Assembly (NCBI GenBank): GCA_024691125.1
Contig: JAILNV010000007.1
Span: forward strand, 1 to 64,000
Reading direction: 5' to 3'
DNA: 64,000 nucleotides
Source: Lachnospiraceae bacterium
GTDB taxonomy: Bacteria; Bacillota; Clostridia; Lachnospirales; Lachnospiraceae
Position numbers and translations under genes: made by a program. Below the pieces are notes generated by a model. The model was given only the letters and a program-made list of their open reading frames with translations. It did not search any database and was not told where the DNA came from. Positions 34,563 through 36,346 of the stretch are shown one piece after another (position 1 is the first letter of the stretch; each line of letters begins with the position of its first letter).

Positions 34563-35291
34563 ATGTCAGGACATTCAAAGTTTGCCAACATAAAGCATAA
34601 GAAAGAAAAGAATGATGCGGCAAAAGGAAAGATTTTTACTATTATCGGAAGAGAGATTGCAGTTGCGGTTAAGGAGGGCGGACCGGATCCGAATAATAAT
34701 TCAAGACTGCGCGATGTGATCGCCAAAGCCAAGGCTAATAATATGCCAAATGATACGATCGACAGAGGGATCAAGAAGGCAGCCGGAGACGCCAACAGTG
34801 TAAATTACGAATATGTTTCATATGAAGGCTATGGACCCAACGGAATAGCTATCATAGTTGATGCCCTTACAGATAATAAGAACAGAACGGCAGCCAATGT
34901 AAGAAGCGCGTTTACCAAAGGAAACGGAAGCGTGGGTACGCAGGGCTGTGTATCATTTATGTTTGATAAGAAGGGACAGATCATAGTAGATAAGGAGGAA
35001 TGCGATACCGATCCGGATGATCTTATGATGATGGCGCTGGATGCGGGAGCAGAGGATTTCTCCGATGAAGAAGACAGCTATGAGATCATAACCGATCCCG
35101 ACAGCTTCAGTGATGTAAGGCAGTCACTTGAAGAACAGGGTGTTCCAATGATGTCGGCAGAGGTGACAATGATCCCTCAGACCTGGGTGACTCTTACAGA
35201 CGAGACCGCGATCAAGAACATCCAGAAAACCCTCGATCTTCTTGATGATGATGACGATGTACAGGCAGTATATCACAACTGGGACGAGTAA
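34563..35291 (+). CDS. YebC/PmpR (TACO1) family regulator
   Basis: [55 protein letters not shown]. Confidence 0.97.
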
Positions 35292-35427
35292 TTCGTTACA
35301 GCACACATAAATCCGTAAAAACTGCATGATCGTGCTTGCACAGATCATGCAGGGTTTGCGGATTTGGGTATTGGAACAATACCCACCACGAAAATCGCGA
35401 AGCGATTTGAGGGGGTGCTGTAACGAA
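35292..35427. ncRNA. Candidate multi-branched structured RNA / intergenic structured element
   Basis: 13-bp closing stem (35292-35304/35415-35427) enclosing stems 35309-35315/35359-35365 plus 35322-35331/35343-35352, 35366-35373/35377-35384 and 35392-35398/35402-35408, all perfect. Confidence 0.45.
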
Positions 35428-35459
35428 AGCAACATCCAGAAATGGCGAAGCGATTTGAG
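35397..35459. repeat. 15-nt direct repeat GCGAAGCGATTTGAG (two copies)
   Basis: 35397-35411 and 35445-35459 identical. Confidence 0.85.
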
Positions 35460-35463
35460 TATT

Positions 35464-35503
35464 TATCATAAGGGGGACCGCTTGCGGTGGATTCCTTATG
35501 ATA
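35464..35503. repeat. 40-bp palindromic hairpin element, copy 1
   Basis: TATCATAAGGgggACCGCTTGCGGTggattCCTTATGATA; reverse complement recurs at 55362-55401 with 38/40 identities. Confidence 0.85.
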
Positions 35504-35569
35504 TCAGGGGGTGCTGTGCATCTGCCATATCGTGAAAACTGTAATAGTAAATATGTAAAAGGAAATAAT

Positions 35570-36346
35570 ATGAGTATAGAAAACGACCTGACAGGCATGC
35601 TGTTTGACAACATGTCCCTTATGAAGAAGTTCAATAAGGACACATATGCAGATGCTTTCAATACCTATTACGAGAATTACAAACCACTGTTTGATTCGAT
35701 AGAAAAGAACTGTAAAGATGCTGATGACAGAGACTCCTATTTAAGGGATCTTGCGACTTCATTTGTAAACAGAGCTGTTTCCGAAGAAGAAAGCATAGAA
35801 AAAAAGAGTGACAGGGAACATTTCATAATAGACCATAATTCGGTTCTTGCTGTCTATGTTCTGCCTGCCCTGCTGGAGGCACGAAGCGCTGAGCTTAAGT
35901 CTTTGGCTGATGAGATAGTAAAACAATGGAATGAAGCTTTTACAAGATATACCATAAGCTCGGGAACCTTCGCTGAGATAGACGGTGGGTTTAAGCGCAA
36001 GCTGTGCTATATTACGACGGCAGTATGTGAGAGCCTGGGGAAATCCGATGACTGTTATGAGTTAAAGACGTTAAGAGATTACAGGGATAATTATCTTTTA
36101 TCGAATGAGGACGGCGTCAGGGTTGTTGATACATATTACAATATAGCTCCAACCATTGTAAACAGGATAGGCAAAAGCGGAGATTCGAAGAATATATACA
36201 GGAATATTTTCAACGAGTATATCAATCCTTGTATAGATCTTATCGAAAACGGAAAGCTTGATGAGTGCGAGAAGCTGTATTCCGAAATGGTATACTCTCT
36301 TAAGGAAAGATATATGGATAACAGAACTGAAAGGCAGGATGGATAA
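35570..36346 (+). CDS. CFI-box-type hypothetical protein
   Basis: CYITTAVCESLGKSDDCYELKTLRDYRDNYLL motif; ATG 35570 with RBS aaagga. Confidence 0.7.
   Translation: MSIENDLTGMLFDNMSLMKKFNKDTYADAFNTYYENYKPLFDSIEKNCKDADDRDSYLRDLATSFVNRAVSEEESIEKKSDREHFIIDHNSVLAVYVLPALLEARSAELKSLADEIVKQWNEAFTRYTISSGTFAEIDGGFKRKLCYITTAVCESLGKSDDCYELKTLRDYRDNYLLSNEDGVRVVDTYYNIAPTIVNRIGKSGDSKNIYRNIFNEYINPCIDLIENGKLDECEKLYSEMVYSLKERYMDNRTERQDG

Follow-up and report, generated by a model that had tools for sequence, protein, structure and literature searches.

A block downstream of yebC as a probable immobilised copy of an IS66-type MITE with a conserved structured core

In the stretch of DNA analysed here, 64,000 nucleotides from a Lachnospiraceae bacterium (the window), the gene yebC is directly followed by a block of 136 nt that is predicted to fold into a multi-branched structure. 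The question raised by this locus is whether the block belongs to yebC, as a regulatory RNA would, or whether it came there as one copy of something more general. Taking all results together, we consider it likely that the block descends from a MITE with ends of the IS66 type and a conserved core of structured RNA, of which it is an old, immobilised copy.

Position and fold of the block

The first base of the block is the base directly 3' of the yebC stop codon, and the copy sits between two genes with the same reading direction. The minimum free energy fold of positions 35292-35427 is a closed multiloop with three hairpins (-74.1 kcal/mol). None of 200 dinucleotide shuffles reached an energy as low (mean -32.0, sd 3.3), which corresponds to a z score of -12.6. 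The four stems described in the initial annotation are all found in their places, and the calculated fold is the closed multiloop proposed there. Some details had to be corrected. The long hairpin is present and contains internal loops; the third hairpin is present as well and continues into a lower stem (35386-35413) that holds a tandem G.A / A.G step (CGA...GAG). The element does not end at 35427 but continues with a partial second 3' module. The parts are listed below, all on the + strand, with the basis of each assignment in brackets.

34563..35291, + strand: yebC, the host gene directly upstream; context only, outside the element (ORF)
35292..35304, + strand: P1, 5' arm of the closing stem (fold, copies)
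35309..35365, + strand: P2, long hairpin with internal loops and a G(CUUG)C tetraloop (GTGCTTGCAC) (fold, covariation, strand-biased mismatches)
35366..35384, + strand: P3, GAA-capped hairpin GGGTATTGGAACAATACCC (fold, yebC-site comparison)
35386..35413, + strand: P4, GAA-capped hairpin (AAATCGC-GAA-GCGATTT) over a tandem G.A step (CGA...GAG) (fold, covariation)
35415..35427, + strand: 3' arm of P1 (closing stem), corresponding to the inner part of the right terminal inverted repeat (fold, copies)
35440..35459, + strand: start of the second, partial 3' module (AAATGGCGAAGCGATTTGAG) (sequence, relatives)
35460..35506, + strand: 47-nt hairpin of a second mobile family (TATTTATCATAAGGGGGACCGCTTGCGGTGGATTCCTTATGATATCA), after the GAG of the second 3' module (sequence)
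35507..35517, + strand: end of the interrupted second 3' module (GGGGGTGCTGT) (sequence)

The 5' arm of P1 is likewise the inner part of a terminal inverted repeat, the left one, which reads TTCAGAACAG... in mobile copies and TTCGTTACAG... in the window. An intrinsic terminator (stem and T run) was not found at 35292-35427, and no promoter or terminator signal of the block rose above chance. The conserved gene at 35570-36346, which lies between yebC and a cysteine/methionine-metabolism-type gene at 36346, gave no Pfam match.

In relatives, the 3' module is found in one to three tandem copies. In the window, the partial second module (~35440-35517) is interrupted by a foreign hairpin of 47 nt with the core TCATAAGGGG-CCGC..GCGG-TGGATTCCTTATGA, which is inserted after the GAG of the P4 module without a visible target duplication. 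The same hairpin (loci L104, L105, L106, L108; L003, L016, L004, L005, L009) occurs across the bacterial family and at the same position in several other copies of the element. Comparison of an orthologous MITE copy (L134 with L219) showed an insertion of this kind, likewise of 47 nt, to be absent in G332 and present in G302. It may be a passenger of the Y1/IS605 type.

A dispersed family and its mobility

A BLASTN search of the block against its own genome returned only the self-match, suggesting a single copy in it. This was wrong, as a search with a covariance model built from eight copies revealed a dispersed family. The model found 29 matches in the window's genome, 20 of them with E<0.001, and 76, 61, 29, 26, 17, 13, 11 and 10 matches in sister species, where many lay at contig ends, as expected of recent repeats. 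Of the sampled genomes of the bacterial family, all of them drafts, at least a quarter hold the element (103 or more of 396 genomes and 99 or more of 333 genera, with eight candidates scored per genome). When 29 copies from other genera were folded independently, each took the same overall shape with a different sequence. The phages and plasmids searched held no match to the block, and the near-invariant P3 sequence gave only weak matches to viral contigs, probably by chance. Hence the structured element was correctly located downstream of yebC but is not private to this gene; it is one insertion among many.

The recent copies are nearly identical units of 142-143 bp (GTAACTATTCAGAACAG...CTGTTCTGAATAGTTAC). 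They have terminal inverted repeats of 17 bp (GTAACTATTCAGAACAG) and duplicate 8 bp of the target. Both ends were present in 53 copies, and in 21 of these the flanks form an exact direct repeat of 8 bp (0.5 on average and 4 at most in shuffles); the mean identity of the 8-bp flanks is 0.72 versus 0.39 in shuffles, with a signal at length 8 only. The same was seen in other genera, where the exact repeat flanks 15 of 39 copies and the signal is again confined to 8 bp. By these marks the recent copies are typical MITEs, transposed as DNA. The repeat part of the case that the initial annotation had named against itself, a non-transcribed genomic repeat, is therefore true: the family is dispersed and MITE-like, with inverted-repeat ends and 8-bp target duplications. 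The evidence for mobility covers part of the family, as the GTAACT end was not seen in the GAGCCATGC-type members nor in L265.

Several variants were seen beside these units. In L223, L233 and L230 the MITE is ~230 bp long and has two extra hairpins where P3 sits (AGCAGAACACTTAGCGAGG...). An extra insert in the tip of P2 (GCGACGCGAAGCTAGTCCTTTAGGGC) occupies the same place in L102 and L206, from two species, and points to further nested mobile hairpins. Many solitary GTAACTATTCAGAACAG ends with no partner nearby occur in G000 and G305 (e.g. L235-L242), often near genes; the window's genome holds 60 matches to this end. The solitary ends suggest frequent deletion of the MITE interior or a use of the ends at promoters.

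Transposons of the IS66 type (PF03050) with MITE-like ends are present in the same genus and family. The transposase gene of L248 (PF03050, 102 bits) starts inside an element whose left end, GTAACTATTCAGAAC, is identical to the MITE end over the first 15 bases. Among its nearest homologues the end GTAACT[AG]TTCAGA is exact in L294, L295, L297 and L310 and carries one change in L312 and L313; in L296 both ends of a 1.8-kb element are visible. The ends of a second IS66 subgroup read GTTACTGTTCAC/GTAAC, and those of parallel MITEs (L355, L356, L370) read GTTACTATTCACAG. The insertion sequence L303 is flanked by an exact 8-bp duplication, GCCGGAAT. Both 8-bp duplications (PMC3281130) and GTAA ends (PMC12888890) have been published for IS66 elements. 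An autonomous element carrying the 17-bp MITE end in exact form was not found; the best match is the first 15 bases mentioned above. A pair of ends 5.2 kb apart (L234) was considered as an autonomous transposon and rejected, as its interior consists of ordinary host genes. These sequence comparisons strongly support the idea that an IS66-type transposase moves the element in trans by way of its inverted repeats. The RNA domain was not found in the IS66 elements examined. Therefore the MITE is no simple internal deletion derivative of them, but rather cargo between IS66-type ends.

In the window copy, GTAACTATTCAGAACAG was not found within 3 mismatches, terminal inverted repeats starting with GTAA are missing and a target duplication is not recognisable. 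This copy thus appears to be an old, immobilised one that has lost its outer repeat ends and, because these are gone, would no longer be able to jump. Within the genus, 36 genomes gave a yebC match, and 30 full loci and one split locus from them were inspected. Among these loci the element lies directly 3' of yebC in seven species, including that of the window. The stem sequences of these copies differ while pairing and tips (CUUG, GAA) are kept, and P3 (GGGTATTGGAACAATACCC) is almost invariant. In other species of the genus the site either holds a deletion remnant (L023, L024) or is without the element (L026, L028). L024 (TTCGTTACGAA) was also considered as an empty site; since L023, a near relative, holds a larger remnant, a remnant left by deletion is the better reading. 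The window P2 is 97.8% identical to that of G302, though yebC is only 81.5% identical, and 68.1% identical to that of G305, though yebC is 89.3% identical. The long hairpin downstream of yebC has been swapped between species independently of the flanking gene (L019, L020, L027).

Conservation as a folded single strand

If the hairpins matter as RNA, compensatory changes and a preference for one strand should be visible in them. In an alignment of 66 sequences, 92% of the cells pair and 51 of 52 pairs show double-sided change. Compensatory double-sided cells number 1085 versus 313 in shuffles, and the covariation score of 0.730 drops to 0.103 or less when the structure is slid. This alignment was fitted to the model and hence leans towards it, but a small alignment made by sequence alone showed the same covariation behaviour. 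The covariation search suggested by the initial annotation thus yielded massive compensatory change in a fold containing all four helices. Compensatory pairs can, however, partly stem from palindrome-correcting mutation.

The strand test addresses this point with isolated mismatches in P2; the score by which the pairs were assigned makes no difference between G.T and A.C. Because a G.T in double-stranded DNA reads as an A.C on the opposite strand, both should be equally frequent under neutral change or under selection at the DNA level. In 70 mutually dissimilar representatives, G.U was found 28 times and A.C 3 times (p 5e-6), and G.A 41 times as opposed to one C.T. These p values are rough, as copies at orthologous sites are not independent. 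The model search itself slightly favours G.U over A.C; when the test was restricted to high-scoring copies the bias held (23:3). In recent copies the ratio of G.U to A.C is 18 to 2, or 8 to 2 when each change is counted once. As the recent copies score far above the search threshold and keep the bias, it was not made by the search alone. G.U exceeds A.C in all four helices. These results support the folded + strand as the target of selection, most simply in the form of RNA, although a folded single DNA strand could also produce such a bias. Covariation, strand-biased mismatches and a whole-model match to the Rfam family RF01699 thus uphold the description of the block as a folded RNA domain and not a simple terminator.

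Relative to upstream genes, the copies are evenly split between the two orientations (45:44), and downstream genes are mildly biased towards the sense direction (64:31). A strict leader would not give this pattern, nor would a strict 3' element, and no single cis-regulatory role is indicated.

Interpretation and relation to known elements

A possible course of events is the following. An IS66-type transposase would recognise in trans the ends, which double as the outer strands of P1, and paste the unit into A+T-rich intergenic DNA. Where a sense transcript runs through the copy, the RNA would fold into the three-hairpin domain. Long-term selection may then see the folded RNA, which could protect, process or insulate the host transcript or help the element itself. 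The support for a role of the transcribed fold consists of covariation and strand bias. At yebC, where the copy presumably cannot jump and the fold has been kept in seven species, the copy was probably kept or tolerated as a putative RNA module.

The other explanations differ mainly in what the fold would be for. A private cis-acting RNA of the yebC operon (riboswitch, leader or 3'-UTR element), conserved for the regulation of yebC, would account for the intact fold at this site in seven species despite sequence change. It is largely refuted by the many copies beside unrelated genes in the same genomes; furthermore, other species lack the element at yebC or have lost it by deletion, and the promoter and terminator signals of the block do not exceed chance. 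We thus regard it as highly unlikely. A purely selfish MITE, whose hairpins are DNA palindromes that serve transposition or stay perfect through palindrome-correcting mutation and have no role as RNA, agrees with the demonstrated inverted repeats and target duplications and with insertions in both orientations, and GAA triloops and CTTG loops are stable in DNA too. Yet neither double-stranded DNA nor neutral palindrome correction is expected to give the observed ratios of G.U to A.C and G.A to C.T. Moreover, core fold, CUUG loop and tandem G.A were kept across genera while the sequence was replaced, and the core fits an RNA family model, which makes this explanation unlikely.

The block could also be an ordinary, non-mobile member of RF01699, unrelated to MITEs that merely resemble it. 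The matches over the whole RF01699 model would agree with this, but a single model of the yebC copies joins MITEs, yebC copies and L265, which exceeds the Rfam cut-off, into one continuous family, so that we give this explanation little credence. Least plausible, to the point of being negligible, is that a RAYT (Y1) transposase moves the block as a REP/BOX-like repeat. Short palindromic intergenic repeats would be in line with it, but the target duplications of 8 bp, which refute it, and the long terminal inverted repeats both indicate a DDE and not a Y1 transposase, and the matching ends are found on IS66 transposons. The preferred reading therefore remains the immobilised MITE copy with IS66-type ends and a conserved RNA core.

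A bolder generalisation, which we put forward only tentatively and would not ourselves bet on, is that of a class of mobile RNA domains. Transposition of the IS66 type would have spread one ancient three-hairpin fold through many genera, selection would keep the RNA after insertion, and Clostridiales-1 would be the visible tip of the class. If this were true, the fold should have a common cellular partner, such as a ribonuclease, a helicase or a ribosome factor, and new copies would be ready-made regulatory modules in host transcripts. With a MITE whose fold appears to be under strand-specific selection across genera, it becomes a directly testable question whether bacterial MITEs turn into functional RNA modules. 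Structured-RNA scans of these genomes will keep finding copies as separate candidate RNAs.

The statement that the block matches no riboswitch class was nearly right. It has no match to a riboswitch aptamer model of any Rfam class, and in the Rfam scan every family stayed below its curated gathering threshold; yet the block is related to RF01699, Clostridiales-1. The window copy scores 27.3 bits (E 5.9e-4), below the cut-off of 48 bits, and both it and its relatives align to positions 1-166 of the 166 positions of the model. The relatives L094, L158 and L069 reach 44.3, 39.4 and 38.6 bits, and L265, found by the covariance model of the block, exceeds the cut-off with 51.7 bits. RF01699 shares with the window copy the closed multiloop, three hairpins in the same order and a long first hairpin with a GCUUGC tip. 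Weinberg et al. (2010, PMC2864571) list Clostridiales-1 as a candidate or probable RNA and not as cis-regulatory; their main text comments on it no further and does not speak of mobility, inverted-repeat ends or target duplications. The window copy is thus a sub-threshold relative of RF01699, and the mobile relatives that belong with it to one continuous family are MITEs of the IS66 type. This gives an orphan Rfam family a likely identity: at least part of the Clostridiales-1 kind would be a mobile element.

An IS66-related MITE is not mentioned in a review of prokaryotic MITEs (PMC10969869). The present family resembles IS66-family MITEs in its inverted repeats starting with GTAA, 8-bp target duplications, length of ~143 bp, lack of coding capacity, multiple copies and A+T-rich targets. 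It differs in that its core is a conserved fold not derived from the IS66 elements examined, and the window copy differs further in being without outer ends and duplication. Correia elements, ERIC and BOX have other hosts, sequences and ends than the present family. Like it, they are small intergenic repeats that move and give transcripts with stable hairpins; the cross-genus covariation measured here refers to the present family. For transcripts of Correia elements, cleavage by RNase III has been reported (PMC10969869).
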